From Paenibacillus sp. 481 (GTDB lineage: Bacteria > Bacillota > Bacilli > Paenibacillales > Paenibacillaceae), in assembly GCF_021223605.1 (NCBI RefSeq), contig NZ_CP075175.1, positions 5,411,501 to 5,475,500 on the forward strand: a DNA stretch of 64,000 bases, given 5' to 3'. The notes under the pieces were generated by a model. It did not search any database and was not told where the DNA came from. It saw only the letters and a list, made by a program, of their open reading frames with translations. The position numbers were made by a program, and so were the translations under genes. Shown here piece by piece: positions 1 through 38,062 of this stretch. Each line of letters opens with the position of its first letter. Positions within the stretch are counted from its first letter, which is position 1.

Positions 1-3000
1 GAGTCCTTAGTAGAGTCCTCGTTAGAGTCCACAGCCGAATCCGCAGTAGCTTTCACAGCAGTTGGAGCCTGTTCAGACGAAGCCAAGTAAAACTCAAAAA
101 ACTCTACAAAATGAGTCCAATTAAGAACAGGAAATCCAGCTTTGCTCCTCGCCCACTTGGCCGCGCTCTTCAGCATAACTGCATCGATATCGGATTTCAT
201 GTAATGCAGCAAATCGAACAGCCGAATCCAATGGGCATCCTGAACAGGCCGCTCCTCTATGTCAAAATGGGTTAACATTTCGGAAATTTCGAACTGGTGC
301 TTACGGAACCTAAGCCTTTCCCCACCTGAGCTAATGAGCGATATGCTAGACATGTCCTCCGTATAAGGCAGCTTTCCTTTCTCCGAGATTTTGTAGACGA
401 ACATCAGCAGCTCATCTAGCTTGTTTTTAGCTTTTAATTCGCGGATCTTATTAACATGGATACGTATTTCGCCAGCGAAGCTGAGCATATCACCGCCTGC
501 ATTCGTTATCTCTATCGCAATGCCATCTTTCTGCATCTGGGTTTGAATGTCCTTAATCCACACTTCCACCGGCTGCTCATCCTTAAGATTCTCTGTCCAA
601 CGCCATGGGCGTGGTCCGACATACTTGCTGTTCTCAATCGCAGGCCTACCAGGTTCGCCGGTAGCCGACATCCCCTGACTATGCTTGTCCCACTCCCCTT
701 CTCCTGACTCTTTATCGATCCATCGGTACAAGTGATAATGCGGCGATGTATGACCCGCCATGCCGTGCTCGGTTAAGTCCATATCCACCATCAAATTTTC
801 CTCGTCCTGATCCTTCACGAACATGCGGTACTGATACAGTCGCCCGCTCTCCGTGTCGTATTTTACATCAGGCAAACCGTCATCTGGCAGCTTAGACGTT
901 TGTGGATTATCCAATCTCCCAGGAATAATACTATGTCTATAACTCGGTGTACCGTCCTCAAAAAACCCGGAAGGACTATCCGGAAACAATTGACGGATCA
1001 GCTTGTCCGAAAAACCTAAATCCCTCATGACCTGAATAAGCTCCGCAGGGGTACGTTCTCTTGCTTGATCCAGAATCTGCGCCATTTTAACGGCCCGAGT
1101 ATCCTTGTCATTGTGGGCATTGCTTATTAACTCAACTATCCGTTTACGGATCAATTGCAGTTGCTCGTCAGCAATATGATAGTTTCTGGCAGAAAATTTA
1201 AGCAACCGCCCGAGTCGATTAAATGACATCAATTCAAATAGCTCTTCAACAAAGCTTCTTTCCAGCGAATACAAGTTTTTAGACAAGGTATCGGCTACTC
1301 CGCGTCCTGTAGGATCATGAAGCTTGCCTGTCTTATCGATATAAAGCGAATTCATCGAAAAATCTCGTTTTTTGGCATCTTTTTCGTAAAATCCGGAGTC
1401 TGCGAAGGATCGGACCTCAGTTGCCCTTTCTCTGGGTACGCACGTAATATCGATGGAAAATTCGGTTTGAATGGCAAGTTGGACCAGATGCAGCTTATCC
1501 GTTTTGACGACATTGCGAGGGATATTGGAAAAACGTTCGTCCGCAATCAGCATCGCGACCAGCGAATCGATATCCATGTTCGTCGTGACATCGATGTCTT
1601 TAGGTGATTCACCACGCAAGGAATCCCGCACGGAACCGCCAACGAAAGCGATATCATATTGATTGGCGGATACGAGCTCAATTAAATCTTTCACGGTAAC
1701 CGTTGAATCTTTTTTGCCGATCGGCTTTCCGAATAGTGTGGCAGCGGGACCTTTGTTCGGCACGACTATCTCGTTGTAGCTGTCACTGCCGTGTACGATC
1801 GGATCGGCCTTAGCTCCGTCCGGCTTGTAAAATTCATAGGTCTTGTCTTCTTCCTTCACCGTCGCGTCAACCGGAATGATCGTCAGCTTGCGACCGCCTA
1901 GCTCCAATATGAAAGGTTTATCGGAAACATACTTCTTCACATCCGGCACCTCGACATCAGGAACGGCCTCACCGATTGCCGTTGAAGAACCAAGAGATGG
2001 TGCAGAGCCATCAGGTAGGCCCGTACTCCCCTTCCCTATCTCTTTCTCTTTCTCTTTCTTTTTCACTTCCTGCTCCAAGTACATTTCATACAAATGCTTC
2101 GTTATTCCTTTATCCGCGGTAATTAAGCGTACTTCAGTTGCTTCCGATTGCGTCAACGCATGTAGCGAATCGACGACAAGTTGCCGATCAGGCGCGCCCT
2201 TGGATCCACCGACCTGCCGCTGCTCCAACATAAGCAAATCGGCGGCATACTGTCCTTGGTGGTTCGAACCGTCTCGCTTGCCAGTGATCGGCATTGGCTT
2301 CCATGGAATGCTCGGTGTTTTTTTGGAGCCAGCTTCGAAGACGCGGGTTCCGAATTGCACCAATTCACCAATGACCATGTTCGGAAGCCGAATGTCCTTC
2401 ACCGTACGACCATTCAGCAGTTCCATCGTTTTGCGTTTGACTTGTAGCTCCTCCGGATTCATATCGGCATCCGCTAGGAGGAGCGCTTTAGCAATGTTCG
2501 TGTCCAAAATAAGTGATTCTGAAGACAACGGGCTGTTCTGCTCATCATCATTAGCGGCAGTATTCACGTTTGCCAACGTGTCGCGCAATTGATCAATCAA
2601 GCCGCGAATCGCGGCCATCGCATTATTTTTACGATAGTAGGAGATTAAGCGGGCTGCTGTATGGAAACCTAGTGTGCGCACGAGAAATCCGGCTTCTAGC
2701 TTCGTGATGAAAAAAGCATCGACCGCGTTATCTATCGTTTTCTTCGTGGGCAGGGTATCTCTAAGCTCCAGCTTCTTCACGGGTTTTTCCAAAAATGTAT
2801 CCGGAATATCGATGCTCACGTCAAACTTTTCTTTAAAAGCGATGAGATATTTTTTGTCGTCTGATTTTTTGAAGTTCGCCAAGAAAGTCCCTAGAAGCAA
2901 CTCTCCATTGATGTATAAATTGAGCTGACGCAGCACATTTCCCATACGAGGCTTTTGTTCTTTTATTTCTTTTTCCAAATCCGTGTGATGCTTCTTGTCG

Positions 3001-4304
3001 ATGTGTTCAAATAAAAAGGGGAATTCCTCTTCTGGTTTCTTCTCCACCACTACTTCATCACTATAATCGGAATATTCCATTAACATCTCCAAAAAAGCAT
3101 CGTTAGTATCCTCATGTATTGGAGTACTCGATGATTCATCGCTTGCTGTTGTTGGTTTGTCGATGAGCGGTGTCTCCACAATCGGATCGTCTTTTTTGAC
3201 CAGCAAAGGTACGGGTACGGGAGGCGTTTCATTTCTTCGTTTTTTCTTTGCTTTCTCAAAATCGGTATCCGTATTCGTAGCTTTTTCCTTCAAACTCGCC
3301 ATATATCGCTCTCTGGACTGTTTTGTTTTCTCGGTTACCATGTTGAGGTGATTGATCAGCCCTGTCGGCATATCCGGATGTTCCCGCTCCGAAGTTGATT
3401 TGTGAAATCTAAGATAAAATTCGCTCAATTGAGCAAGGAAACGTGTCGACGAAGCCAGAGTCAGCTTCAATTCCGAAGCTGTAAATTCTGTTAGACTCGC
3501 AAACTGGACACTTAATGCTTGGGCATTTGGATGTTCTTCCAAATGAGGTAGCCAGTCTACTAGTGTGCTCCACAAAGCTGATTCGGGAATATCAGTTTGT
3601 ATGGATTGAACAACCCGATCTTCCAACGTCCGTACACCTGATCTTACTTGGGGTATGCCCGATTCGCTGCCTGTCTTTCGTTTGCTGCCTGCTTCGGAAG
3701 GATCGAACCAACCGGGGGTTTCGCTTGCCCAATCTTGAATTTGCCGCAGCGCCGAACGCAACAAGGGAAGAAGCGCCTCTTGATTGATCGTTTCCGCAAT
3801 ATATAGGATGTATGATTTCACGCCTTTGCCGTCATTTACCGGACCGCGACTAATAAAGACGGGCTGCCCGTGTTCTGCCTCAGAAAGCAGCTGAATGTCT
3901 ACCGCTATCCTTGAATGCCTATTATATATGGAGTCGATAAGCAATCTTTTATGTGTACGATCGACGGTAGTAGACGGGTCTTCCAATTTACTCAAAATTT
4001 CATCAATAATATCCCCCTCTGAATCGCCAGCTTTCCAACGCTGAATGACCTGATTGGTGGAAGGAGAAGCCGTTGAGCCCGGGCCTTGCCGAACATCTTG
4101 CAATAGGGAAACCATCTGTAAAACAGAATCATTTCCAGAAACGTGCTGCATATGAAGGAGTCCCTGATGAGTCAACGATACACGGTTTTGACTTGCTCCG
4201 AGTGTTGGCTCGTGCAGAGCACTATCGTTCGTGCCGAGCGGCGTTTGAGTCGCGTGAGATTCATTGCCTTGACCGGTTTTAGATGCTGTTTGATGCGTCA
4301 TCAT
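1..4304 (-). CDS. Giant eCIS cargo candidate with PIN-like and CCA-adding/poly(A) polymerase-like domains (3' end outside window)
   Basis: One frame stays open from the tandem ATG codons at 4304/4301 to the window edge, at least 1434 codons, so the C-terminus is missing. Upstream of the start is a GGTGGGGG ribosome site. Residues 49-65 read LLHMQHVSGNDSVLQMV, matching a motif in the DUF4157 protein and the kinase of this locus. Residues about 595-745 look like a PIN nuclease: LDTN with D601, then E647, D706 or D712, and ITADKG with D731. Residues about 882-1010 look like a class II tRNA nucleotidyltransferase head: GGSVRD at 889-894, KDID with D903 and D905, D952 in IDIT, and KRDFSMNSL around D981. 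A His-rich stretch follows near 1180. The middle (about 300-420) is charged linker. It lies 82 bp behind the AAA+ ATPase gene. A role as an injected RNA-active effector is inferred from the shared motif and location; the domain calls come from motifs only. Confidence 0.8.
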   Translation of the reverse strand, partial: MMTHQTASKTGQGNESHATQTPLGTNDSALHEPTLGASQNRVSLTHQGLLHMQHVSGNDSVLQMVSLLQDVRQGPGSTASPSTNQVIQRWKAGDSEGDIIDEILSKLEDPSTTVDRTHKRLLIDSIYNRHSRIAVDIQLLSEAEHGQPVFISRGPVNDGKGVKSYILYIAETINQEALLPLLRSALRQIQDWASETPGWFDPSEAGSKRKTGSESGIPQVRSGVRTLEDRVVQSIQTDIPESALWSTLVDWLPHLEEHPNAQALSVQFASLTEFTASELKLTLASSTRFLAQLSEFYLRFHKSTSEREHPDMPTGLINHLNMVTEKTKQSRERYMASLKEKATNTDTDFEKAKKKRRNETPPVPVPLLVKKDDPIVETPLIDKPTTASDESSSTPIHEDTNDAFLEMLMEYSDYSDEVVVEKKPEEEFPFLFEHIDKKHHTDLEKEIKEQKPRMGNVLRQLNLYINGELLLGTFLANFKKSDDKKYLIAFKEKFDVSIDIPDTFLEKPVKKLELRDTLPTKKTIDNAVDAFFITKLEAGFLVRTLGFHTAARLISYYRKNNAMAAIRGLIDQLRDTLANVNTAANDDEQNSPLSSESLILDTNIAKALLLADADMNPEELQVKRKTMELLNGRTVKDIRLPNMVIGELVQFGTRVFEAGSKKTPSIPWKPMPITGKRDGSNHQGQYAADLLMLEQRQVGGSKGAPDRQLVVDSLHALTQSEATEVRLITADKGITKHLYEMYLEQEVKKKEKEKEIGKGSTGLPDGSAPSLGSSTAIGEAVPDVEVPDVKKYVSDKPFILELGGRKLTIIPVDATVKEEDKTYEFYKPDGAKADPIVHGSDSYNEIVVPNKGPAATLFGKPIGKKDSTVTVKDLIELVSANQYDIAFVGGSVRDSLRGESPKDIDVTTNMDIDSLVAMLIADERFSNIPRNVVKTDKLHLVQLAIQTEFSIDITCVPRERATEVRSFADSGFYEKDAKKRDFSMNSLYIDKTGKLHDPTGRGVADTLSKNLYSLERSFVEELFELMSFNRLGRLLKFSARNYHIADEQLQLIRKRIVELISNAHNDKDTRAVKMAQILDQARERTPAELIQVMRDLGFSDKLIRQLFPDSPSGFFEDGTPSYRHSIIPGRLDNPQTSKLPDDGLPDVKYDTESGRLYQYRMFVKDQDEENLMVDMDLTEHGMAGHTSPHYHLYRWIDKESGEGEWDKHSQGMSATGEPGRPAIENSKYVGPRPWRWTENLKDEQPVEVWIKDIQTQMQKDGIAIEITNAGGDMLSFAGEIRIHVNKIRELKAKNKLDELLMFVYKISEKGKLPYTEDMSSISLISSGGERLRFRKHQFEISEMLTHFDIEERPVQDAHWIRLFDLLHYMKSDIDAVMLKSAAKWARSKAGFPVLNWTHFVEFFEFYLASSEQAPTAVKATADSAVDSNEDSTKD

Positions 4305-4386
4305 TGACACTCATTCCCCCACCTACGACAAATGATTTTGGAGTCTAAATTGCAAGGGCTAATACAGCTTGATTAATACAGCTTAA

Positions 4387-6621
4387 TTAATCCTCTGCAT
4401 ATTCGTCCCAATCGCGATTTGACATGATCTTTCCGTTTTTGAGCAACTCGTAGCGAGCCGCTTGCAAAATATGCCGCATTCCAATCGATTCACCAGCTTC
4501 GGCTGCCAGAAATGCCGAAGAAACGACGATATTTTTGATATGCCCTCCCGATAGTTCCAGTTTGCGTCCAAGATAAGCGTAATCAACTTCATCCGATACT
4601 GGCGCTTCCTTGGGATACAAAGAACGCCAAATCCCCTCACGATAGGTAGCATCCGGAAACGGAAACTTAACAACGTAGCTAATACGCCGCAAAAATGCTT
4701 CATCAATATTTTGCGCATAGTTGGTCGCCATAATGGTAATTCCCTCGTACTCCTCCATTTTTTGCAGCAGGAAGGACGTTTCCATGTTTGCATATTTATC
4801 GTGAGAATCTTTAACCTCTGACCGCTTGCCGAACAACGCGTCGCACTCGTCAAAGAACAATATCGCATGACTCAACTGCGCTTCTCTAAAAATATCGTGC
4901 AAATTCTTTTCCGTTTCTCCAATATATTTACTCACAACTTGAGCCAAATCGATTTTATACATTTGCAACGCCAGCTCGCCAGCAATGACTTCTGCCGCCA
5001 TCGTCTTGCCTGTTCCAGGAGGCCCCGAAAATAGCATGCTAACCCCTTTGCCATACGAAAGCTTTTGCGAAAAGCCCCATTCACCAAATACGATATGTCG
5101 ATACTTAATTTGGTTGCATGCATTGCGAAGTTGTTCCATTTGCTCCAACGGTAAGATGACATCGGCCCAGCCATATTTCGGCTTTATTCTCGTCGACTTC
5201 GTCTCCAATTGATGCTGAGCTCCACGATAACAAGCCGCCACTACATGCTCATAACGAATCCGACCGCCTTCAGCTACGTCCCACAAACTAATCGTATGCG
5301 CTTGTTCCAACGCCTGTTCGATACGCCCTGGGGTGAACCGAAACGCCCCGGCCAAAGTTCCCCATGAGATTCCTGCTTGATCACATACATAAGGCTGCGA
5401 CATCTTCGACCACAGCTTTTCCCGCTGTCCTTCATCCGGAATGTCGATTTCTGCATCCATGCAGCGCCTCTGCACCGCTATATTCGGTTTCCACGCACGT
5501 TCTGATAAAAAAAACACGGCCCGCGGGAAATACTTCATCGAGGATATGATAAGGTCTAGCTTCTTGCTTATAGCCGGATCCTGTTGCAAGCTCGCCTCGA
5601 TATGCCGGAAGCAGATTACCGCTTGTTGCAGCACCGCCTCGCGAATCAAGTGTGTTATTAACTCGTCAAACGGTTTATCTTCCTGCAACATTCGTCTTAC
5701 ATCTACCACAAGCAAAGGATGCAAAAAGTGCTGGCAAAAATGCTTGACGTGGAACAGCTTTCCTGATCCGGCAGCGCCCGATATACAAATCAGCAATCCC
5801 TGCTGCCCTTTGGAATCCGAATGCGAATCCGACTCGTACATCCGCCCCGCAAATGCCTTTAGCTTATCCTGAAGCTGTTTATCAACGAGCAACTCACTCA
5901 GTTGACCCGACGGATAAATCATTTCGCAGAAAGGAGAAAGTCGATCATCCAGCTTATTTGCCCCCAGCATAAATGCGACTATTTTCTCGTCGAGTTGGAG
6001 TGACTTGCTTAACAGCGTATGGCCCGACACTTGCGTATGCGATGTAAAAAAGAACCGTTGCAGCGTACTGCCTGCGGACAAGTAGCTTCTCGCTTGAAAC
6101 TTCTCCTCCCATTCCCCTTCAGTTAACTGCAAGATCAGATCCACAGAGGCACTTTTACGCGTAACGTCATCTTGCAAATAAGCATAAATCTTTTCATATT
6201 TCCGATGGACTTCAGGTGCGAGGCAAATCATTATGCAGCGGGCCTCATAGGCCGACAACCCGAATACGATTGACACATATTGCAGAGGCGTAACCGCTTG
6301 CAATTTGGTACACAACTGCAAACGCGCTTCTATCTCCTCTTCCAACGCCCTAATTCGGAAGTCAATATCTTCGTCATGATCGACAGTTGGTTCATTCAGC
6401 CAATACAGGATTTCTTGCTCAGACATGACTAGTCCTTTCAAATGATCGAATGGATTGTCCGCACCTGCTGCGTTGCGTTTGTGCCAAATGGCGTGAAGCT
6501 TTAAATCCAACAGCAGCAGCTCGTCATGCAAGTGCTCCCAAACTCTAGAATATGCGGTGCGCGATTTCTCATTGACGGTACGGTTCACCAACACTTCACC
6601 TCCCAACGTATAAGTTGACAT
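4387..6621 (-). CDS. eCIS AAA+ ATPase (Afp15-like), two P-loop regions
   Basis: A 744-residue protein of the type found in nearly all eCIS loci, where the ATPase is needed for particle assembly or cargo loading. The C-terminal AAA+ domain is complete: Walker A GPPGTGKT near residue 533, Walker B ILFFDECDA near 587, sensor 1 in IMATNY near 628 and an arginine finger in FLRRI near 643. A second, upstream nucleotide-binding region has GAAGSGK near 283, followed by LF instead of the usual T/S, so it may be degenerate. The start has GGAG 8 nt upstream. It probably shares a transcript with the giant downstream cargo gene, since only 82 bp separate them with no hairpin. It is separated from the DUF4157 gene by yfmM and a terminator. 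Confidence 0.9.
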   Translation of the reverse strand: MSTYTLGGEVLVNRTVNEKSRTAYSRVWEHLHDELLLLDLKLHAIWHKRNAAGADNPFDHLKGLVMSEQEILYWLNEPTVDHDEDIDFRIRALEEEIEARLQLCTKLQAVTPLQYVSIVFGLSAYEARCIMICLAPEVHRKYEKIYAYLQDDVTRKSASVDLILQLTEGEWEEKFQARSYLSAGSTLQRFFFTSHTQVSGHTLLSKSLQLDEKIVAFMLGANKLDDRLSPFCEMIYPSGQLSELLVDKQLQDKLKAFAGRMYESDSHSDSKGQQGLLICISGAAGSGKLFHVKHFCQHFLHPLLVVDVRRMLQEDKPFDELITHLIREAVLQQAVICFRHIEASLQQDPAISKKLDLIISSMKYFPRAVFFLSERAWKPNIAVQRRCMDAEIDIPDEGQREKLWSKMSQPYVCDQAGISWGTLAGAFRFTPGRIEQALEQAHTISLWDVAEGGRIRYEHVVAACYRGAQHQLETKSTRIKPKYGWADVILPLEQMEQLRNACNQIKYRHIVFGEWGFSQKLSYGKGVSMLFSGPPGTGKTMAAEVIAGELALQMYKIDLAQVVSKYIGETEKNLHDIFREAQLSHAILFFDECDALFGKRSEVKDSHDKYANMETSFLLQKMEEYEGITIMATNYAQNIDEAFLRRISYVVKFPFPDATYREGIWRSLYPKEAPVSDEVDYAYLGRKLELSGGHIKNIVVSSAFLAAEAGESIGMRHILQAARYELLKNGKIMSNRDWDEYAED

Positions 6622-6756
6622 GGAAACTACTCCGACAACCCGAATAACAATCCAAACACATAATATAGTTTAGTCTCGAGTTGATATCGTCCATATCGAT
6701 GTAATGGGAGAATTCGACGAAAACCAACATTTTCCTACCTGTCTTTAAACGATATG

Positions 6757-6804: not shown

Positions 6805-6817
6805 CTTTGAGCATGTA

Positions 6818-11850: not shown

Positions 11851-11873
11851 CAACGATGCCAAGGAGGCAGCTT

Positions 11874-17563: not shown

Positions 17564-17596
17564 TGGTCTTCCCTCCGTTCACGCCACGTTTGCTTG

Positions 17597-19888: not shown

Positions 19889-19906
19889 CACATAGCCCCC
19901 TCGTCG

Positions 19907-22984: not shown

Positions 22985-23028
22985 CTAGCCACCCCCTTTG
23001 CTCGGAATGGGCCGAACTTCAGTAGCAG

Positions 23029-23430: not shown

Positions 23431-23451
23431 CTCAAGCCCCCGTTTGTTAAG

Positions 23452-25265: not shown

Positions 25266-25269
25266 AGGT

Positions 25270-25890: not shown

Positions 25891-25921
25891 ACTCGTCACC
25901 CTCTATGCTGGATTTGCTCGG

Positions 25922-28900: not shown

Positions 28901-30898
28901 TGACCTTAAAACTGGACTGAGATTTGATCCAGCTTGCGAAAGCTGTCCATGTGTATAAAACGATTTACTGAACAACGTATGCATGACTGCGGTTGAAAAC
29001 GAAAAAATACGCCCCAGCCTGTGCACGAGCTTCGACATGTTAGCGAATGTCGCAAAGTTGCTTCGCATAGCCGGAATCGGAACAGCCGTCTTTTGTCCAA
29101 CTTCGCTGCGTTTGGCATGCGTTATCACGCTTCGCTGTTCCAAAAACCTTTTGCCTGAATGCGTCTGAATCTCATTTTCTACAGCCCGCTCAATCCTTAA
29201 CATTGCGGCAAAACGCAACAACGAAGCTTCCATTCGCGCACTAGCTATTAGGCGTTCATGTTGTACCCATTCCGTGAGAGCTCGCTCATCGCGCACTCCT
29301 AGCCTTAGTTGGTTTCGTTCGCCTACTTGCGAAGAAATAGGGACGAAAAAGCCGCTAGTAGCTAGGAAAATGTTTAGCTCTTCACGCCTCTTCAACATAT
29401 TCGACTGGAATCGACTGTCGTAAGTCAAGAAGGCTAAAGGGCTAGGGTTAGGCTTAGGGTTAGGCTTAGACAAAGCTAGCGGGGGAATAGGCCCCAACAT
29501 CGAAAACGACAATGGCTTCCACAACAAGCTCGCCGCTTCCGACCGCGCAAACCTTTGATTCATGCTAACATTACGGATAGTAGACCACCGTATCGCCTCG
29601 TGCTTTAATTTCCATTTTCCAATAAATAATGAGCGATCACGCTTTATTTTGTGAGCAAATATTCCGGAAGATGATTCACTAGTATGAAAATGGGAGTTGC
29701 TAACGGACGCACGGAAAAAATCCAGCTCCTGCTTCCACCGTTGCACCAATGACCGACTACTGACAATACGACTGTCAATTCGACTGTATGCTACAGGACT
29801 CTCCCGCTGTTCCTGCTCCCCAGCCATAAACAACCGCACCCGACGGTCTAATGTCAACAAAGCATCGTTGTACTTGTACAACGCTTGCAGCGTCACCGAC
29901 CACGGCTCCCGCACAAAGCCTACTCTTTCTCCCAACCGTGTATCCCGATCTAACATTCCGACTTGGCGAAGCAAATCCCCTTGCGACCCCGCTTGCTGTA
30001 TTGACCTACTTGCCAACGGAACCAAAAAAGTACGCTCAAGCCCATACAAGCTTGGATTGATTTGTTGCGCATGCCACCATGCCGCAAAAGAATGCAAATC
30101 AGGTTGTCCATGTACGAGCCGTCCATTGAAGTGATCTCTAGTTGCAAACGGCCAATTTGCAAGCAATGCAAGTGAACGCGGTCTTTGTGCAAATCGACTT
30201 CGAGCAAGCAGTTGTAGTCGATTTGGTCGTAGTTGATTTGGTTGCAGGCGCTCAACGCCCATGTATACATTAAAGGGAGATCTCTCTGCTAGTTCCTTGG
30301 AAAAAAAGTGTTGTCGTCTCCCTCGTTCGATTACAGGAGTCATCTGCGCTGGAATTATTGCCTTTGTCGAGAAACTGGAAACCATGCTAGGTGTGAATGT
30401 ATTCGCTCTATGCAAATGCAAACGCGGCAAGCCGAAATACATCGTAGCGCCGAAATCTGATTTCCCATTATTCCTCGCCATCGGGATCGGGAGACGCTCA
30501 GGACGAATCTGCAACAGCTTTTCCCTAGGAGAACGTTGTATCTCTCGCAGCTCTTGACTCCTTTTAAAATCTTGCAGCACTTGAACACCTTGAACCTTAT
30601 GAGCTTCTTGAAGCTCTCGAACCTGTTGTCCCATTTGAGTCCATATCAAGGACGAAGCCAACTTCATCACCTGAAGGTGGACATGCTGTTGAATGCGAAA
30701 TTGATTCACCGTTAGGTACGAGAAAACAGATGCCCCAGCCGGAGCTGGATTAGCAGCATCCCTGAATACGAGTGCAGGTCTCCCCCATGAATGTCCGTTA
30801 AAGAAAATGCCATATTTGCTGCTTATACTTTGGGCGAATCGCTCCGTAGGCGGTTTTCCTCGCAAAAACTTGGAAGTCTGTTTCATAATACCATTCAT
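25922..30898 (-). CDS. 1658-residue basic repeat protein of the eCIS operon; possible tape measure
   Basis: A very long protein between the second tube gene and the LysM adaptor. It is rich in Arg, Ser, Leu and His, lacks clear membrane spans, and holds eight 25-residue repeats at about residues 1290-1486 (core RIDGQVLGGR-K/T-VPRNED). The last 30 residues, ending VFREFEKKVQFEQQRRGL, resemble the tail of a short protein encoded at this position in other eCIS loci. I prefer ATG 30898 (GAGGAG 7 nt upstream) over GTG 30913. No other gene in the locus is long enough to be a length-determining tape measure, which motivates that guess. The high Arg content and repeats are unusual for tape measures, so a scaffold or filament role is also possible. 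Confidence 0.7.
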   Translation of the reverse strand: MNGIMKQTSKFLRGKPPTERFAQSISSKYGIFFNGHSWGRPALVFRDAANPAPAGASVFSYLTVNQFRIQQHVHLQVMKLASSLIWTQMGQQVRELQEAHKVQGVQVLQDFKRSQELREIQRSPREKLLQIRPERLPIPMARNNGKSDFGATMYFGLPRLHLHRANTFTPSMVSSFSTKAIIPAQMTPVIERGRRQHFFSKELAERSPFNVYMGVERLQPNQLRPNRLQLLARSRFAQRPRSLALLANWPFATRDHFNGRLVHGQPDLHSFAAWWHAQQINPSLYGLERTFLVPLASRSIQQAGSQGDLLRQVGMLDRDTRLGERVGFVREPWSVTLQALYKYNDALLTLDRRVRLFMAGEQEQRESPVAYSRIDSRIVSSRSLVQRWKQELDFFRASVSNSHFHTSESSSGIFAHKIKRDRSLFIGKWKLKHEAIRWSTIRNVSMNQRFARSEAASLLWKPLSFSMLGPIPPLALSKPNPKPNPSPLAFLTYDSRFQSNMLKRREELNIFLATSGFFVPISSQVGERNQLRLGVRDERALTEWVQHERLIASARMEASLLRFAAMLRIERAVENEIQTHSGKRFLEQRSVITHAKRSEVGQKTAVPIPAMRSNFATFANMSKLVHRLGRIFSFSTAVMHTLFSKSFYTHGQLSQAGSNLSPVLRSNVRTSMNLNMLLLKPNLSFSTMQTETAHGVVERVNRHLTERLLEHLLVTDRYFTFAEQVKRFFGFSRDVRNQPSYSMRQQRPKIEGNQAPAWVSVVEHSYSNLLVAARPLQLRFGKRSLESSFSTTSLRHATFFMERLRGGLAGPLFQNEIFRKQAVWDDHDAARPAARSERTIITYFSDPTYMNRARHLHSRINESDVERLFASAKSLFVRSDTVHKHFRVSARNWAGVHAFRLSPLVARVAEMVKRQTEAQEYEHLSPIHSSNPVSMLTMNRFGQSVFLLPKQSMLNGLLWGSAPKMVAPVKKEIHISSPTIAPLLARLKQGWLIRSSERIQNGYGHLIPVGPTQSGIHNYTRLTVKSFELMRSDAAHRWEDGSIAHASFDSRFNDMNTVVKQKLVMNRARFVTESESNARKSNWNSESASASVQTRLQNESRSVWKRVNGVKTSPYFYTLLGTGGSSIERSERIRSKMWSTQTEIANRSRTLIQLDRSENARYFQLNMRRLQMQTSTLKWMRVQVAKGRVERLMLPSNISVMPNVAVISKKMLAISTLLSSGQRKRRLSPLGMTVKDVDLHSSVNLLPVSYMLKLLNLTNTLSSAQLPTAMLSSISMRIGDRVGVHVHGRTRGHTLARVDEQVLGRTVSRNDERGRGYALARIDGQVLGGRKVPRNEDHVRGITRARIDGQVLGDRTVPRNEDRTRGITLARIDGQVLGGRKASRNDERGRGYTLARIDGQVLGGRTVPRNEDRTRGITLARIDGQILGGRKVPRNEDHVRGITLAHIAGRALARTLSRNEERTRGVSLAPRIDGRALSRTASRINERTSHRSSEHVTGLVRKLTREQFTPLSRIGHEAKDVRTTKEALQAKALLQAKAKVNGNDRTPAIPVIQLRLLTKSFERGEHVHKLAKEPSASPASYRAPVMEYHKPKRNMFNEEQAEGLAAKSVRNEIQVEKSPVTIPIQTAASTSVNIDQIVEQVFREFEKKVQFEQQRRGL
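26440..27030 (-). repeat. In-frame 75-bp tandem repeat array, eight units
   Basis: The landmark GTCCATCGAT and close variants recur with starts at 26476, 26551, 26626, 26701, 26776, 26851, 26926 and 26998, a spacing of 75 bp with one 72-bp step (one Gly codon missing). Units alternate between NEDHV/RGIT, NEDRT/RGIT and NDERG/RGY variants, suggesting multi-unit duplications. The repeats lie inside the 1658-residue protein. Confidence 0.93.
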
Positions 30899-30909
30899 GG
30901 GAGGTCTCC

Positions 30910-31347
30910 TCACTCGCTAATGAATACCGTTTTCAGACCATTATGTACAAGCTCAAGCGTTTCGATGGCGATTTCCTTGCTATCTGATTTCAGATCCGTT
31001 CCAACCCACTTGGTCGGGTAAGCGCCTACGAAATCCCAACTACATAACGGTTGACCATCCTGCCTTTGCAGCACGATCGTGCCATTTTTCCGCTCGATCT
31101 TTCCCATAGTTACATTACAATACCATTGCCATAGGGCGTTAGACATCGTAATTCCCCGTTTTAACACGAGTACGGGACTGGTCGTTTTCTTGGGCAGACG
31201 ATGTACAAAATCGTTTACCCCACCCTCGCGATACTCTTCAAATTCCGTCTCAACCTGTAGTCCACGAACTTCGGTAAATCCGATGACTCCGTTTATGCCC
31301 TGCAAGTATACGATAAAGCGAAACGTGCCACTCGGCTGGTCAAACAT
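30910..31347 (-). CDS. eCIS inner tube protein (gp19-like), second copy
   Basis: A 145-residue tube protein of the T4 gp19/Hcp-like fold family: SGTFRFIVYLQGINGVIGFTEVRGL, then EYREGGVNDF and RLPKKTTSPVLVLKRGIT, with SNALWQWYCNV and a C-terminal AIETLELVHNGL. It is related to the first tube gene at 31969-32400. Afp loci also carry a separate tube paralogue (Afp5) near the baseplate that initiates the tube, and the position here fits that role. AGGAGG lies 6 nt before ATG and overlaps the DUF6760 stop. The stop overlaps the region upstream of the 1658-residue protein. Confidence 0.92.
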   Translation of the reverse strand: MFDQPSGTFRFIVYLQGINGVIGFTEVRGLQVETEFEEYREGGVNDFVHRLPKKTTSPVLVLKRGITMSNALWQWYCNVTMGKIERKNGTIVLQRQDGQPLCSWDFVGAYPTKWVGTDLKSDSKEIAIETLELVHNGLKTVFISE

Positions 31348-31357
31348 TTAAATCCTC

Positions 31358-31546
31358 CTATTTAAACACATCGAATACGTTCTCACGCTTGTCCTCGTTC
31401 AGGCTGCGATTAATACGTGAGATCTCATCGCACCATCTTTTGCGCTCCCGATGCTCCATAGACATAATGTCATCATGCGACCAATGAAAATGGTAAGCGA
31501 TAAACGCCACTTCCTCATAAACTTTGTCTTTCGGGTATACGGTCAG
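31358..31546 (-). CDS. DUF6760-like micro-protein of eCIS operon (probable CTG start)
   Basis: A 62-codon gene in the 190-bp space between two called genes. The frame encodes a protein with YEEVAFIAYHFHWSHDDIM followed by MEHRERKRWCDEISRIN, the pattern of the short DUF6760 proteins found beside eCIS tube genes. An in-frame stop lies about 12 codons upstream and the frame has no ATG, GTG or TTG before the conserved core, except GTG inside EEVAF. The only position that retains the whole domain is CTG at 31546, whose TG overlaps the TGA of the upstream gene. That suggests re-initiation by coupling, or a sequencing error near the start. The frame stays open to TAG at 31358. Confidence 0.72.
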   Translation of the reverse strand: MTVYPKDKVYEEVAFIAYHFHWSHDDIMSMEHRERKRWCDEISRINRSLNEDKRENVFDVFK

Positions 31547-31917
31547 ACCACTTGGGGCTCGTCCAAAAAATCGAGCTGAACCTCATGATCATGTCCACAC
31601 TTCGGACAAGATGCCTTCACGCGCGGTGACTCCGCCTTATTAATTTCCTGATAAAAATGTTGCAGAAATGCCAGATCCGCCGTGAATAAATTCTCGATCA
31701 CCATCGTGTCGAGCGCTTTTATATCGCCGAGCCGTGTAATCACGCGTGCGAGCAAAATAATCGTCAAGTAACTCGGATTCGTCTGTACCCGATGATCACG
31801 TAAAGGCGCAATTTCATCAGCTGCTGTAGCTAGGCGCATCACACCTTTTTTATGCAAATTCCCGTTCTCGTCTACATAGCCTTTTGGCAATTCGAAAGCA
31901 TATTCCGTTTTGAACAT
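31543..31917 (-). CDS. Small conserved eCIS protein with CxxC metal site
   Basis: A 124-residue protein encoded between tube and DUF6760 genes, as in other eCIS clusters. Recognisable parts: FELPKGYVDENGNLHKKGVM, then RLATAADEI, a helix-rich middle (LTIILLARVITRLGDIKALD and FLQHFYQEIN) and a C-terminal CPKCGHDHEV likely to bind zinc. The family may act as a tail-assembly chaperone, by analogy with the gene order tube - chaperone - tape measure in phages; that is inference. GGGAGG is 12 nt upstream of ATG. The stop overlaps the DUF6760 start. Confidence 0.82.
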   Translation of the reverse strand: MFKTEYAFELPKGYVDENGNLHKKGVMRLATAADEIAPLRDHRVQTNPSYLTIILLARVITRLGDIKALDTMVIENLFTADLAFLQHFYQEINKAESPRVKASCPKCGHDHEVQLDFLDEPQVV

Positions 31918-31968
31918 GATGATGTAACGCCTCCCATTGAAAATAGATGCCGCTCAATTCCTGACTTC

Positions 31969-32400
31969 TTACTTTTTCCGCGTCATACCTTCATGGGCAA
32001 TTTCAAGCGATTCAATCGCGATATCATTACCCAATCCTTTAAAATCAGGTGCCGTATATTTGCACGGCCAAGCGTTAAGCACGGTCCACACGGCTTTTTC
32101 TGCCCCAGTCTCATCCAATGCAGTAATCGTCACCGATTTTCTCGCTATTTTCCCGTTAACGGCATCCTCCATCCACTTATACATATCCATCGAGTCGGTG
32201 ACTCCCCATTTAAGCGTAATGTTTCCGTACTTGGTTAGCCCCGGAAGCTTACGCGCGGTCGTGGTCTCATTGCCTTCACGGTATTCAATCACTTCAATGG
32301 AAGCGTCGTATCCAGATACTTCACTGAATCCGGCTTGCGTAATTTGATCTACCTGTACGGTAAACCTAAAACTTCGATATGGATCTACGCGATCTGCCAT
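31969..32400 (-). CDS. eCIS inner tube protein (Afp1-like)
   Basis: A 143-residue main tube protein: DPYRSFRFTVQVDQITQAGF, then EYREGNETTTARKLPGLTKY, LKWGVTDSMDMYKWMEDAV, and a C-terminal AIESLEIAHEGM. All are typical of the T4 gp19-like tail tube family in contractile injection systems. It follows the sheath gene by 41 bp, the usual order, and GAGGGG lies 8 nt before ATG. It is paralogous to 30910-31347; this copy, beside the sheath, is the more likely bulk tube subunit. Confidence 0.95.
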   Translation of the reverse strand: MADRVDPYRSFRFTVQVDQITQAGFSEVSGYDASIEVIEYREGNETTTARKLPGLTKYGNITLKWGVTDSMDMYKWMEDAVNGKIARKSVTITALDETGAEKAVWTVLNAWPCKYTAPDFKGLGNDIAIESLEIAHEGMTRKK

Positions 32401-32441
32401 GACTATATCCCCTCATTTTCCGTGTAGAAGTCGTATTCCGG

Positions 32442-34331
32442 TTAGCTGGCGTCGCCGCCTGTTTTTTGCGTAATTCTGAAAATAACAAACTCTGCTGGCT
32501 TAACGGGAGCTATGCCGATCACGCAAATTAACCGACCGTTATCGATGTCATCCTGTGTCATCGTATTTCGTCCGATCTGGACATAGAACGCCTCCGATGG
32601 ACTTCCACCCATCAATGCGCCGCTGCGCCAAACCGTCGTTAAAAACGCATCGATCGTCAGGTTGACACGGCTCCAAAGCGTCTGGTCATTCGGCTCAAAT
32701 ACGACCCAGTTCGTCCCTGTCTTGATGGATTGCTCCACATAAATAAACAATCTTCTGACGTTTACGTATTTCCATAAGCCGTTGGAAGAGCATGTTCGCG
32801 CTCCCCATACTCGAATGCCTTGGCCCGTAAAGGCGCGAATCAAATTGACGCCGATCGGGTTGAGAATATCTTGTTCGCCCGTATTGTACTGGCAATCCAG
32901 ACCGATACAGCCGCGAACGACTTCGTTCGCTGGAGCCTTGTACACACCACGGGACTGATCCGAGCGTGCATAAATGCCGGCCATCGAACCTGAAGGTGGA
33001 ATGAAAATGTTGCGTTTTTCTAGTGGATCGTAAACTTGAAGCCAAGGATGATAGAGTGCCGCATATGAAGTGTCGAAAATATTGCGATGAGCCTGAACTT
33101 CATCGACTCGTTTTTTTGCCTGAGGAATATCTAGGATGGCAAATCTGCTGGCAAGGTTTTCGCAGTGGGCCACTAAGGCGACCTGCACCGCAGGATCAGT
33201 TACACCAGGAACGCTAATGATACTGACCTCGTCATTATCAATGAATGCTTTAATGCCCGTGCGACGTCCAGGGCCGTTGTCAGTCCCCATATAAATGTCG
33301 GATGGAAACTTAGATGGATCATCGGTTACGGTTCCGTCCGAACCACCCTCAAAAAAGATACTGTACGACGATAGCTTATTGTCGGGTGCGGACGTTTCCC
33401 CTAAAGCTGAAATCGTTTGAAAAGGGGAAACGATGCCTTGCACAGGTTCAGGTGCAACAGGTGTCGCTGGATCGTTCGTTTCTTCCTTCTCATCGGCAGC
33501 TTTGTTCGTGCCATCGTCTTCCTTCTCTTGCTCCTTTTCTTTCGGAGGAAGAACGGCTGCTTTGGGCAAAAATGCAATAATATTCGAACGTGAAATGAGT
33601 TTCTCAACATGGTTAGGTGCTAATTCGTTGAGCGAGCAATTTTCATACGTCTCCTGCTCTTGCCCAAACGTTACAGCGAGTGTAAACTCGCACGTGGTCA
33701 GCACTTTCACCGGAGGTAGCGTCTTGCCATCGTCAATGACCGCTGCGTCGCCAGCAAAATGCTGTGCAAACGTGATGACATCGTCCTGTACAGAAACGAC
33801 TTGATTGTACAGTTTCGTTTTGCCGTCTGACGTAAAACCAACGATATCGCCAGCAAGAAATCCGGCAGGGCTCGCAACGCGATATTGCGTAGAATTGGAA
33901 GCGTCTCCAACAATTGCTTTGATCGTCGTCTTCGCTTTGCTCGAAGGTATAAATTCAGCACGAATCCCGTTGCCCCAAAGACCCGGATTTTTCGCGGAAA
34001 AGCTAACGTCCGCTGATTTGCTAACCGCCTTCGCTGGCTTTGCATCCGCAGCAGCGACTCTCATGACAAAGCAGCGGGAGCCCCCGTTGTTAAAAAAATG
34101 TTCGACAGCGTACGCCAGAAAGCGGTTGTTGCCATAAGGATTGGCAGGCAAATAGGAACCAAACTGCCTCTGGAAATCGGCAAAGCTTGTTAAGAACCTC
34201 GGAATACCCTCGGTGTCCCCCCTCTGTGCCATCCCAATAAAACCCGCCGTACTCGTACTGACACCTTGCATGGGTACGCCACCGCTATCAAATTCTTGCA
34301 CATACACGCCTGGCGATAAATACTCGGCCAT
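32442..34331 (-). CDS. Contractile tail sheath protein (Afp2-4-like)
   Basis: A 629-residue sheath protein. The N-terminus MAEYLSPGVYVQEFDSG and the C-terminal region (YVEQSIKTGTNWVVFEPND, WRSGALMGGSPSEAFYVQIG, then GRLICVIGIAPVKPAEFVI) are diagnostic. An acidic, Pro/Glu/Lys-rich insert around residues 265-295 separates the N-terminal domain from the contractile core and is likely surface-exposed. Only one sheath gene is present, unlike the three of the Serratia antifeeding prophage. The ribosome site is weak (CGGGCAG). A 144-bp gap separates it from the preceding gene, without a clear hairpin. Confidence 0.97.
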   Translation of the reverse strand: MAEYLSPGVYVQEFDSGGVPMQGVSTSTAGFIGMAQRGDTEGIPRFLTSFADFQRQFGSYLPANPYGNNRFLAYAVEHFFNNGGSRCFVMRVAAADAKPAKAVSKSADVSFSAKNPGLWGNGIRAEFIPSSKAKTTIKAIVGDASNSTQYRVASPAGFLAGDIVGFTSDGKTKLYNQVVSVQDDVITFAQHFAGDAAVIDDGKTLPPVKVLTTCEFTLAVTFGQEQETYENCSLNELAPNHVEKLISRSNIIAFLPKAAVLPPKEKEQEKEDDGTNKAADEKEETNDPATPVAPEPVQGIVSPFQTISALGETSAPDNKLSSYSIFFEGGSDGTVTDDPSKFPSDIYMGTDNGPGRRTGIKAFIDNDEVSIISVPGVTDPAVQVALVAHCENLASRFAILDIPQAKKRVDEVQAHRNIFDTSYAALYHPWLQVYDPLEKRNIFIPPSGSMAGIYARSDQSRGVYKAPANEVVRGCIGLDCQYNTGEQDILNPIGVNLIRAFTGQGIRVWGARTCSSNGLWKYVNVRRLFIYVEQSIKTGTNWVVFEPNDQTLWSRVNLTIDAFLTTVWRSGALMGGSPSEAFYVQIGRNTMTQDDIDNGRLICVIGIAPVKPAEFVIFRITQKTGGDAS

Positions 34332-34475
34332 AACTGCCCGATTTCATAAGATCGTACAAATGAACAAGTGAACAGATAGGAAATGAATACATGTTCCTTT
34401 GTACTAGTCCCGAAACCAGTTCCTCCCCCCAGCTTGTAGTTAATGTATCGAAGATTGAGAGCAAATCTCAATCGA

Positions 34476-35285
34476 CTAACCGCAGTAAATAGAGCCCAAG
34501 TAGGTCGTCTTCCCCTCTGTAACGGTAACTTGTTGACTGAAATGTTGGCCCCGATACGAGTATTCAAGCCGTAAATCAAACTGCTTCGCATTGCAGCTGC
34601 GAAATGGGAGAACGATTTCTCCCCTCTCATCACTGTGCGCTGTCACGACGGGCAATAGTAGCGTTCCCCGGTGATAGCTGTGCTGCAACGGTCTATCTAG
34701 CACAAAGCTTCTTGGCTCGTCAAGCAATTGAGCGATGCGGAATACTTCTGCTTCTCCCGCTTCTTCATGTTTCTCCTTGAATAGGAAGGCATCTCCCTCC
34801 GCTATTCTCCCTGTTAAGCCAGACAAGCGAATGGTGCAACTTCCTTCTTTCACTTCCTGTGCGAGTCGCGCTCTGGCATGCAGGTCGTCGGTGAAAAATG
34901 CCTGCATGTCGGCGCCCGCAGCAGGCTGGCCCGATGCATCCTTGATAGCTGCTCGCAGCAGTGTTGCTTGGTTGGAAAAAGGATACGCAGGGTGCGGGAT
35001 TAATGCTACGCACACAACAGGCTCGATGGGATTCAACGCATTCATATCCACGCTTATCGTCTCGGGCAAATACCTTGCTGAGCGGACGGTCACGGTGTAC
35101 GTTCCAGTCGGCGGCAAATCGGTAAGGACATAGAGGCCGTCTGGTTTTTTCACGGGTTGGCGGCATATCGTATCGCTAACGCTCACCTTCAGATCGGGGT
35201 CCGATGGAGGACCCGCTGTATAGGTGTCAATTAGGCGGACGACAAACGACAGGCACACAGGCTTCATTCGTTCAGACAAACGCAT
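34476..35285 (-). CDS. eCIS-operon protein with carboxypeptidase-regulatory-like domain
   Basis: A 269-residue protein, second in the operon. Residues about 12-100 (LSFVVRLIDTYTAGPP, then GLYVLTDLPPTGTYTVTVRS) look like an Ig-like carboxypeptidase-regulatory (CnaB/DUF-type) fold. The C-terminal half has a second similar module (VVTAHSDERGEIVLPF, YSYRGQHFSQQVTV). No catalytic motif is seen. Related proteins occur next to DUF4255 and sheath genes in eCIS loci and may form surface decorations. Start choice is uncertain: a strong GGAGGTG lies 26 nt before ATG 35285, but the nearest ATG to it is out of frame. Confidence 0.7.
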   Translation of the reverse strand: MRLSERMKPVCLSFVVRLIDTYTAGPPSDPDLKVSVSDTICRQPVKKPDGLYVLTDLPPTGTYTVTVRSARYLPETISVDMNALNPIEPVVCVALIPHPAYPFSNQATLLRAAIKDASGQPAAGADMQAFFTDDLHARARLAQEVKEGSCTIRLSGLTGRIAEGDAFLFKEKHEEAGEAEVFRIAQLLDEPRSFVLDRPLQHSYHRGTLLLPVVTAHSDERGEIVLPFRSCNAKQFDLRLEYSYRGQHFSQQVTVTEGKTTYLGSIYCG

Positions 35286-35323
35286 AGCTCGCTTAGCATG
35301 GCTTGACTTAACACCTCCGCCTG

Positions 35324-35878
35324 TTAATTCTCTTCCATCTGTGTATCTTGCTGTCGCACCCGCTTCATCGGATTCGATCGCGCCGAATCTAGATACACGG
35401 GCCCTACAAGATAGCTGACCGACAGCTTATAAGGAATGTGCGGAAACAAAGAAGTCATCATATCAAACGGCAGATGCTCCCGCACAATGCGAACGCTCTC
35501 ATTATGCTCTGATAGCGTGCCTTGCAGCGTTGATCCGCCAATGATTCCGTTATCATACAACACTTGCATCGCGCGCCCTAGAATTCGATGTTCATCTAGC
35601 GCACGAGTACTCAGATCGGCGTTGGAATGAGCCGTCATCAAGTAGAACAGCTCTACCGCCATCGGCTGACCGGAGCCTCTTTGGACCATTCCCGCTTGTC
35701 TGTATTCCACGCTCTCCCTGATGTTGTACAGGAATAGTGACAAGCTCAGGTCGCCCTTGTCGGCGGGAGATGCCAGCCCGATTAATTCCGGTTGCGTGAT
35801 TGGGTAAGGCGTCAGCTCATTTCGTAGGAGCTTGATTAGTGTCTTGCCCGTATCGGCAATGACCGTATAGTCGCCAAT
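35324..35878 (-). CDS. DUF4255 cap/terminator protein (Afp16-like), probable ATT start
   Basis: A 184-codon gene at the head of the operon. DUF4255 proteins (N-terminal part of Afp16) cap the distal tube and sheath. The conserved N-terminus GDYTVIADTGKTLIKLLRNE and the following SLSLFLYNIRES are intact only if translation begins at ATT 35878. In this frame an in-frame TGA lies three codons upstream of ATT and no ATG or GTG precedes the domain; the first TTG is at 35743, which would delete about 45 conserved residues. A perfect AGGAGGTG sits 7 nt before ATT. Either a rare ATT initiator is used, as in infC-type regulation, or one base is wrong in the sequence. Confidence 0.85.
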   Translation of the reverse strand: MGDYTVIADTGKTLIKLLRNELTPYPITQPELIGLASPADKGDLSLSLFLYNIRESVEYRQAGMVQRGSGQPMAVELFYLMTAHSNADLSTRALDEHRILGRAMQVLYDNGIIGGSTLQGTLSEHNESVRIVREHLPFDMMTSLFPHIPYKLSVSYLVGPVYLDSARSNPMKRVRQQDTQMEEN

Positions 35879-35885
35879 AAGTGCT

Positions 35886-35893
35886 CACCTCCT
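35886..35893 (-). promoter_or_regulatory. Perfect Shine-Dalgarno for a non-standard ATT start
   Basis: AGGAGGTG on the minus strand, 7 nt before ATT 35878. Its spacing fits ATT and no ATG, GTG or TTG, so it decides the start of the DUF4255 gene. Confidence 0.8.
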
Positions 35894-36598: not shown

Positions 36599-38062
36599 AT
36601 GGAACACAAACGTGCTAACACCGATCCCCCAAAAAATACGCCAATTTCAAAACAAAACACACTTCATAACAATAACACTGCATATAAACAACCTTTTCGA
36701 TTAGAGACTACCGCTTGGACCCAACATGATGTGCTGCAGCTCCAACGGGTCATTGGGAATGTATCCGTTAGACAGTTCATGCAGCATAGCAGAGTACCAG
36801 AAATCCAAAATCCGTATCACAATCTACCGCGGCAAACAGCGGTCATACAAAGGGTATTGGATGAACAAAGACCGCAACTTACCGAAAAATTTGGTGCAGA
36901 AATTGCTCAAAAGCTAGTTCAAACAGAGGGCAACGAGGAAATGGTAAGCAAACGGATTCAAATTATCGAACATTTTCTGCAAAAGCACCCGGATAGAAAA
37001 AAGACGGTCCTCGAAATGCTGACAAAGGAACGGGACGACAATGAAAAGTTAGCCGCGGAACTTTATGGAGCTCCTTTCGAAGATTATTTCGGAAATGATC
37101 GATCTGAAGACGAGGAAAAGTTCATTCCCTTATTTGATACGGACGAATTGGTGAAAGACACCCTAGCTTTACGCCCATATTCCATAAAATCAACATTAGA
37201 CAAGTCTTCAGAGCGCATGATATTGCTGGCTAAAGATGACGAAAAGAAAGTTGATGTCGTTATCAAGGTAATCACCAAAGAATTTATGCTGGATGACAAT
37301 GAAGAAGATAACAGTAAAACAAGACAACGTACTCGAGATGAATTCAATATACAAGCAGAAATGTCGGAAGTCGATATTCCGAGCCTGAAGTTGATCGATG
37401 TCGCGGAAGGGAAATTCAACATATACATCATCATGGAATATGCCAAAGGCGGTACACTGGAAGATCGGATTGAGAAGAAGAAACCCCTTAGCTCCCAAGA
37501 AAAAGGAGTTTTGATGCACAATATGGTGAGAGGATTATCTGCACTGCATGAGAAGGGATATGCCCATCGTGATATAAAGCCGGAAAATATTTTTTATGCG
37601 GGCGAATCCGGCGATAGACCGGTCCTCGGTGACTACGGTTTGAGTGAAAGCTTAATACAAGATGAATCGCAGATTAATAAAATGATTGGAAATCCGCTTT
37701 ACGCCTCACCGGAGGTGCTGCGGGCTAGACTCAAAAAAAACTCAGAAGACGAAACGTTTGATTTTAAAAAAGCCGACACGTTTATGCTTGGGCTAGTTTT
37801 CTACCAGCAACTTATGGGGAAAATGCCCTATTCTGAAACTAAAAAGAGTCTTCAAGCACAGTATGGCGCAATGGGTGCCGATGAAGATGAGTTAGAAAAG
37901 CAACTCAAGGAACTAAAAGAGATCAGGTTTGAAGGTTTGAAGGAGGATGAAGCAGCGCTGCTCACTGCGATGTTGAAATACAATCCTAATGAACGACTTA
38001 ATATTGAAGATATAAAGAACAATGAACACTATCAATCCGTTTTAAAGAGATTGTCCTCATAA
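36599..38062 (+). CDS. Serine/threonine protein kinase with eCIS cargo motif
   Basis: A 487-residue protein. Residues 45-61 read VLQLQRVIGNVSVRQFM, matching the DUF4157 protein at the same distance from the N-terminus. Residues about 190-485 are a protein kinase: the catalytic-site lysine in VVIKVI near 222, IIMEYAKGG hinge, HRDIKPENIF near 322, DYG (instead of DFG) near 346, and ASPEV near 370. All catalytic residues are present, so it should be active. No transmembrane segment or PASTA domain occurs, unlike housekeeping PknB kinases. I choose ATG 36599 because its MEH N-terminus matches the DUF4157 protein; ATG 36566, with GAAGG 7 nt upstream, is a good alternative. An injected kinase effector is inferred. 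Confidence 0.85.
   Translation: MEHKRANTDPPKNTPISKQNTLHNNNTAYKQPFRLETTAWTQHDVLQLQRVIGNVSVRQFMQHSRVPEIQNPYHNLPRQTAVIQRVLDEQRPQLTEKFGAEIAQKLVQTEGNEEMVSKRIQIIEHFLQKHPDRKKTVLEMLTKERDDNEKLAAELYGAPFEDYFGNDRSEDEEKFIPLFDTDELVKDTLALRPYSIKSTLDKSSERMILLAKDDEKKVDVVIKVITKEFMLDDNEEDNSKTRQRTRDEFNIQAEMSEVDIPSLKLIDVAEGKFNIYIIMEYAKGGTLEDRIEKKKPLSSQEKGVLMHNMVRGLSALHEKGYAHRDIKPENIFYAGESGDRPVLGDYGLSESLIQDESQINKMIGNPLYASPEVLRARLKKNSEDETFDFKKADTFMLGLVFYQQLMGKMPYSETKKSLQAQYGAMGADEDELEKQLKELKEIRFEGLKEDEAALLTAMLKYNPNERLNIEDIKNNEHYQSVLKRLSS

Follow-up and report, generated by a model that had tools for sequence, protein, structure and literature searches.

A conserved N-terminal motif on putative cargo proteins of extracellular contractile injection systems

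How the particles of extracellular contractile injection systems (eCIS) select their cargo is an open question, and it is raised by a locus of Paenibacillus sp. 481 in which genes for differently built proteins with one similar N-terminal segment flank a particle operon. The stretch of DNA analyzed here, referred to as the window, has a length of 64 kb (positions 5,411,501–5,475,500 of the one-contig 5.69 Mb genome). A conserved signal sequence has gone undetected in eCIS, and cargo is predicted from composition, from the presence of the DUF4157 domain and from adjacency to the operon (Danov et al. 2024, PMC11297309; this and the other papers given by PMC number are cited for the sections consulted). 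The segment in question, a motif with the approximate consensus [LIV]xx[LM]Q[RQK]xxGN[QR]A[VAT]x[QR][LM][LM] and often with a hydrophobic-Q-R element downstream, is conserved and N-terminal, the remainder of the protein being interchangeable; it is nearly confined to genomes with a contractile injection system (CIS) and does not depend on DUF4157. Judged from these patterns, it probably represents an N-terminal address tag of eCIS cargo.

Four proteins of the locus bear the motif. The first is a putative cargo protein of 909 amino acids (aa) with a DUF4157 domain (eCIS_core, PF13699; 8531..11260, minus strand), whose 17-residue motif is encoded at 11060..11110 (minus; sequence reading and matrix score). 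A protein kinase (PF00069; 36503..38062, plus) contains the motif VLQLQRVIGNVSVRQFM (36731..36781, plus; profile and matrix scores), followed by a second element, VIQR (36842..36853, plus; sequence reading). Of a giant protein of 2095 aa, the N-terminal 1436 are encoded within the window (1..4310, minus), past whose edge the open reading frame (ORF) continues; its motif LLHMQHVSGNDSVLQMV (4110..4160, minus) is the weakest of the four by matrix score and is likewise followed by VIQR (4038..4049, minus; sequence reading). A second DUF4157 protein, encoded about 2.1–3.9 kb beyond the window edge (L011:15573-17357, minus), has a segment identical to that of the first and, in addition, a TcdA/TcdB-type glycosyltransferase domain. 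Both DUF4157 proteins match PF13699, while neither the kinase nor the giant does so above the Pfam cut-off. The operon (15473..35743, minus; Pfam matches), which is, judged by its component genes, an eCIS, has the kinase gene on one side and the genes of the DUF4157 protein and the giant on the other. The four motif genes lie at or near this operon, a closeness seen for 11 of the 59 non-DUF4157 matches in the class at large. Two features by which eCIS cargo is judged are found here: an eCIS encoded in the genome, with its operon inside the window, and effector-type domains, namely the kinase, the glycosyltransferase and a ubiquitin carboxyl-terminal hydrolase domain. The latter (PF00443, E 4e-35) forms the C-terminus of the giant and lies mostly outside the window, on L011:17523-19988 (minus), which is contiguous with window positions 1–4310.

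The first-pass annotation of the window had described the segment on three proteins encoded on both sides of the operon, and given the starts MEHS (DUF4157 protein), MEHK (kinase; position 36599, the start that fits the earlier residue numbering) and MMTH (giant), the residues and Gly-Asn positions are as it reported. Its count of three becomes four with the second DUF4157 protein, the giant being admitted on a weaker match. The statement that the proteins share nothing else does not hold, as VIQR stands 37 residues past the first motif residue in both the kinase (ORF residues 77 and 114) and the giant (51 and 88), an identical spacing. Two domain assignments were also revised: in the giant, Pfam supports a poly(A)-polymerase head domain (PF01743, residues about 1278–1646) and finds no PIN domain at E ≤ 1, and for the DUF4157 protein an HNH domain is absent from the Pfam matches at E ≤ 0.01. 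Compared with solved structures, the kinase is matched best by eukaryotic proteins (S6 kinase alpha-5, ULK2 and others), and bacterial kinases score weaker.

The likeness of these segments was gauged with an ungapped matrix derived from 77 other motif segments, from which the kinase and the giant were left out; it was run on the 258 ORFs with a length of 60 aa or more that are contained in the window and the 19.5 kb upstream of it. The two DUF4157 proteins, each resembling members of the matrix, score 55.4 and 54.4, the kinase 35.8 and the giant 18.0, and the fifth-ranked ORF drops to 0.3. Among 12,500 shuffled proteins none attained the 18.0 of the giant, the top shuffle reaching 17.8. With a local profile hidden Markov model (HMM), the kinase obtains 20.7 bits and the giant 0.6 bits (E 3e-6 and 7.3, respectively, in the set of 258 ORFs); nor is the giant among the matches of the profile searches of family and phylum genomes described below. 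By these sequence scores the kinase is a clear member of the class. The giant is a probable one, since its motif is also N-terminal, its gene lies beside that of an ATPase and its VIQR is spaced as in the kinase. Profile A1, built from DUF4157 proteins only, detects the kinase at E 5e-4 per genome, and across loci from several phyla a reversed profile gave no match versus 34 for the forward one. A profile is needed for such comparisons because a single-sequence query with 76 residues of the DUF4157 protein reached the kinase only at E 0.37. Three other approaches were abandoned or set aside: a degenerate DNA pattern, which omitted the TTN codons of Leu, gave 30 matches in the own genome versus 16 for the control; the hydrophobic moment of a supposed amphipathic helix was equalled by 26%, 47% and 79% of shuffles for the three segments; and the A3 consensus, which came from an alignment of mostly unrelated proteins, was not used as evidence.

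The occurrence of the motif beyond this locus was surveyed in 245 genomes of the same family with profile A1. Its 23 seeds are DUF4157 N-termini from these very genomes, selected by a pattern demanding Q or L and G/A-N, except that two (L036, L039) were placed by eye. Matches to DUF4157 proteins are therefore obtained partly by construction, and the matches elsewhere constitute the test. Matches within 1500 bases of a PF13699 match on the same strand were counted as DUF4157, which hides some neighbouring motif genes, and in several genomes the best 35 candidates of a first look were scored. Genomes with the CIS tube protein PF19266 were regarded as CIS-positive; these number 55 of the 245, and PF13699 is present in 35. 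At E ≤ 1e-4, matches occur in 37 genomes, all of them CIS-positive, and in none of the 190 CIS-negative ones. At E ≤ 1e-3, 40 of 41 matching genomes are CIS-positive (Fisher p 3e-32), and away from DUF4157 there are 59 matches in 37 genomes, 36 of which hold a CIS. The lone CIS-negative genome (G117) has a 68-aa ORF with motif and Q-R element (L126:3785-3991, minus), possibly the relic of a lost system. Ten CIS-positive genomes, eight of genus g13 together with G028 and G072, have non-DUF4157 matches at E ≤ 1e-3 and yield nothing for PF13699 at E ≤ 0.001; they offer the cleanest sign of DUF4157 independence.

A second profile, A4, comprises 77 segments picked by a pattern demanding Q...GN, so that Q, G and N are invariant in it by construction. 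It was applied to a phylum sample of 398 genomes, at least seven of which (the own genome included) overlap the family sample and 17 of which are CIS-positive, one of them below the Pfam cut-off. Matches at E ≤ 1e-3 are found in five genomes, all CIS-positive (p 1.8e-6 with the own genome excluded), and the other four belong to other families and are absent from the family sample. Farther afield, 188 genomes from the phylum of Minicystis rosea were searched for the motif, not for CIS; E ≤ 1e-3 was reached only in Minicystis (eight matches), with one match each at E 0.002–0.003 in two more genomes. Among 29 DUF4157-bearing genomes of several phyla, in which CIS genes were not searched, the motif is present at E ≤ 0.01 in eight, that is, in two Tumebacillus, Brevibacillus, Desulfocucumis, a Syntrophomonadaceae bacterium, Minicystis, an Aminicenantes bacterium and SAR324. 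Five DUF4157 loci on plasmids show a clear form of the motif in the two actinobacterial ones (e.g. NILALQRAVGNAAVVRAL), a looser one in Paraburkholderia and none in Deinococcus or Nostoc, and the profile places one of the five below E 0.01.

Sixty carriers without HExxH were then read, corresponding to 57 of the 59 non-DUF4157 matches at E ≤ 1e-3 together with two proteins encoded next to DUF4157 genes and a single match at E 1.4e-3; the kinase of the window and L081, which has HExxH, were left out. Although the search imposed no position, the motif starts between residues 23 and 149 (median 52, counted from the most upstream start codon), and in 59 of the 60 within the first 110. Removal of redundancy by shared 5-mers leaves 45 carriers. 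In a set of 51, which includes the kinase and the portion of the giant encoded within the window, 11 Pfam families are detected at E ≤ 1e-3: five of nuclease type, three of kinase type (one kinase), ubiquitin carboxyl-terminal hydrolase, the poly(A)-polymerase head and OTU, the last below Pfam's own cut-off. The ubiquitin carboxyl-terminal hydrolase recurs on a carrier from another genus, g12 (L098:2475-5336). The carriers of genus g13 keep one N-terminus while their C-termini vary, ending for instance in a colicin-type DNase (L104) or an NS_2 endonuclease (L109), and in this combination of a constant N-terminus with exchanged C-terminal domains they resemble polymorphic toxins.

The element downstream of the motif, a tetrapeptide of two hydrophobic residues, Q and R, K or M, was counted in 42 of the 60 carriers, proteins under 200 aa and redundant ones being excluded. 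It follows the motif in 25 of the 42, where 500 rounds of window shuffling gave 3.3 on average and 9 at most, and is about tenfold denser there than in the remainder of the carriers. A role in docking or in cleavage can be guessed; the protein may be processed at this element, possibly by the metallopeptidase-like DUF4157 domain. The DUF4157 proteins L151, L164, L165 and L173 contain QR...EEELQMK-type repeats located between the motif and the domain. A further conserved N-terminal module, GD.YE.EAD.VA, is present on DUF4157 proteins and on HExxH-less proteins, sometimes soon after the motif (L017, L023, L025, L026, L215–L218). In some CIS-positive genomes without the motif, the DUF4157 proteins start with this module, which elsewhere stands together with the motif, and in such genomes it may act as an alternative tag.

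With respect to genomic position, 11 of the 59 non-DUF4157 matches are no more than 40 kb from the tube gene, another 12 share its contig at distances of 0.15 to 6.2 Mb, and 36 are on other contigs (one in the genome without a CIS), where the draft state of the assemblies hides the distance. The own genome has a 78-aa motif ORF (L219:7171-7407, minus; E 1e-4) at about 255,240, some 5.2 Mb from the tube gene; this ORF may be what is left of a truncated gene, or a tag that stands alone. The first-pass annotation had proposed a modular loading signal independent of DUF4157, had suggested a profile search to see whether carriers without this domain cluster near eCIS loci, and had named a motif widespread far from such loci as grounds for rejection. 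The proposal is borne out insofar as the motif occurs on unrelated proteins, nearly exclusively in CIS-positive genomes and without need for DUF4157. Clustering, in contrast, is apparent for the 11 matches near the tube gene, so that the motif occurs in part far from eCIS loci in terms of position, not in terms of genome content. Independence of genomic position is thereby indicated, and we read the distribution as that of dispersed cargo genes with one machine in common.

The motif segment is best understood as an address tag, and the following scheme can be envisaged. The cargo would begin with a leader of roughly 20 to 150 residues (median about 50), followed by the tag, which would be recognized during particle assembly by a conserved component of the particle or by its AAA loader, while the remainder, with or without DUF4157, could be exchanged between nuclease, kinase, deubiquitinase and glycosyltransferase. 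That recognition serves loading, and which component performs it, is our inference. Candidate receptors are the tube initiator, the spike hub and the winged-helix AAA ATPase. The first two are suggested because a DUF4157 protein of Streptomyces co-elutes with the tube initiator (PMC13277306), and the third by the precedent of Photorhabdus, where Pvc15, an AAA ATPase, handles N-terminal signals (PMC11495950). The ATPase encoded in the window (4387..6621, minus), which has winged-helix (PF22977) and AAA domains by Pfam, is a candidate cargo loader of presumably Pvc15-like function, and such an ATPase could be the reader of the motif. Whether the Q...GN.A motif and the hydrophobic-Q-R element together make up the first sequence-defined eCIS cargo tag, with one particle receptor and a scattered, interchangeable arsenal, is in our estimate an evenly balanced matter; if one particle receptor reads the tag, cargo genes need not adjoin the machine.

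Several observations weigh against a tag of this kind. The motif is not universal, as 15 of the 55 CIS-positive family genomes and 12 of the 17 in the phylum sample have no match at E ≤ 1e-3; with 15 such family genomes, absence of the motif says little. It is also missing at E ≤ 0.01 from 21 of the 29 DUF4157-bearing genomes (CIS genes not searched), among which are every genome tried of the Bacteroidota, Nitrospirota, cyanobacteria and Desulfobacterales as well as three additional myxobacterial ones. At the laxer threshold of E ≤ 0.01 the restriction to CIS-positive genomes loosens, four of 44 matching family genomes and two of seven matching phylum genomes (at E 0.007–0.008) being CIS-negative; judged from their sequences, we take the latter two for chance matches, one to an ABC-transporter ATPase and the other to a protein of chemotaxis type. 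At least 39 of the 51 carriers are without a Pfam family at E ≤ 1e-3. PF22977 is present in 54 of the 55 CIS-positive family genomes, whether or not they have the motif, so that co-occurrence does not single out the winged-helix ATPase as the receptor and was discarded as an uninformative criterion. The 35 residues preceding the motif show no clear excess of hydrophilicity over the rest, their hydropathy being lower in 25 of 43 carriers. Published eCIS signals differ in this respect, a strongly hydrophilic or disordered N-terminal stretch being a criterion for signal peptides of the type found in Photorhabdus virulence cassettes (PVC) and the antifeeding prophage (Afp). Finally, in a predicted structure of motif plus DUF4157, the motif falls into a low-confidence helix (predicted local distance difference test, pLDDT, with block means of 50–56). 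A fold search with this structure yielded a weak likeness to small metallopeptidase zymogens (best E 0.53), and the DUF4157 stretch, searched against solved structures, gave a best E of 1.1.

An alternative that we consider unlikely holds that DUF4157 proteins dock on the motif and act, either in cis or in trans, as chaperone, maturation protease or adaptor, so that DUF4157 is what holds the cargo to the particle. Such an arrangement would be in line with Streptomyces, in which an effector without DUF4157 binds, via its N-terminal region, a small DUF4157 protein that co-elutes with the tube initiator (PMC13277306), and with four Cohnella loci (L168, L196, L199, L203), where a short DUF4157-type motif protein (209 aa, 171 aa in one) adjoins a motif protein without HExxH. 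It is difficult to reconcile with the ten CIS-positive genomes that have non-DUF4157 motif matches and no PF13699 at E ≤ 0.001, with the presence of the motif on DUF4157 proteins themselves and with its absence from DUF4157 loci in several phyla.

It is likewise improbable that the motif acts after delivery, in unfolding, release or placement within the target cell, loading being mediated by residues closer to the N-terminus, as for PVC and Afp. There, the signals are described as N-terminal stretches of 20–70 residues, without conserved sequence (PMC11297309, PMC11495950), and 22 to 148 residues precede the motif in the carriers described here, which include toxin-type nucleases besides kinase and ubiquitin hydrolase domains. 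Yet a single signal of this sort would hardly suit nucleases as well as deubiquitinases and kinases aimed at different targets.

A very unlikely explanation is that the motif is part of some other system, for export or toxins, whose co-occurrence with eCIS is due to lineage. CIS is confined to seven of the 19 genera of the family sample, and the family genomes are not independent of each other. The association persists, however, when stratified within these seven genera (z 7.7; 125 genomes with listed genus), it recurs in the phylum sample, with four genomes from other families, and DUF4157, a known eCIS marker, bears the same motif. A chance likeness of Gln-rich N-termini is barely credible: it could still account for the giant alone (0.6 HMM bits; 18.0 versus 17.8 for the top shuffle), but the figures refute it for the kinase (35.8 versus the same 17.8) and for the class, with no match at E ≤ 1e-4 in the 190 CIS-negative family genomes and none of the reversed profile versus 34.

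If the preferred reading as a cargo tag is compared with known systems, the motif belongs to a known kind, the N-terminal signals of contractile injection cargo; what would be new is a sequence-defined, DUF4157-independent and apparently position-independent marker of putative cargo. DUF4157 (PF13699) proteins are themselves associated with eCIS cargo, and many of them (in Bacillota, Minicystis, Aminicenantes and Streptomyces) bear the same N-terminal motif, in contrast to the DUF4157 loci of Bacteroidota and others, which lack it; conversely, the kinase, the giant and 60 other carriers have the motif without PF13699 or HExxH. As with the effector signals of PVC and Afp, the motif is N-terminal and found on unrelated effectors, the PVC signals being handled by an AAA ATPase (PMC11495950); unlike those signals, for which no conserved sequence is described (PMC11297309), it has a Q...GN.A core and a second element. 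In the CIS of Streptomyces, Tme and Sle1/Sle2 are DUF4157-linked cargo located on the baseplate, spike or tube initiator (PMC11126660, PMC13277306), and a DUF4157 protein co-elutes with both the tube initiator and a DUF4157-free effector (PMC13277306). Sle1 differs in having a coiled-coil region and a DUF4157 partner, and the sections consulted make no mention of the motif (PMC11126660, PMC13277306).

N-terminal marking of toxins has a counterpart in the type VI secretion system (T6SS), for which MIX and FIX are markers in addition to RIX. Similar to the motif, the RIX domain marks polymorphic toxins at their N-termini and adds to the list of cargo; it belongs to another machine and its secretion has been demonstrated (PMC10435454), so that the likeness, drawn by description only, is one of analogy. 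In the open PMC literature, searched by title and the start of the abstract and with preprints outside reach, no description of the present motif was found. Since it separates CIS-positive from CIS-negative genomes (40 of 41 at E ≤ 1e-3), the motif enables a direct test of the loading mechanism. It could further serve to list cargo encoded far from the operon and is a candidate natural tag for protein-delivery particles. If the reading is true, many eCIS genomes keep a scattered arsenal of nucleases, kinases and deubiquitinases that is missed by locus-based searches. The kinase and ubiquitin hydrolase domains encoded at the locus point to eukaryotic targets, as far as domain content may suggest.

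The operon itself encodes, according to Pfam, Pvc16_N, a sheath protein, two gp19-type tube proteins, CIS_tube with LysM, a spike, gp25, two Baseplate_J proteins, Tail_P2_I and a GPD-like hub (below the Pfam cut-off), along with proteins without an assigned family. One operon protein of 1663 aa (25922–30913) has no Pfam match at E ≤ 0.01. Within the eCIS region, on the opposite strand, lies the gene of a MORN-repeat protein (11787–13715) in which a long hydrophobic stretch is recognizable by eye.

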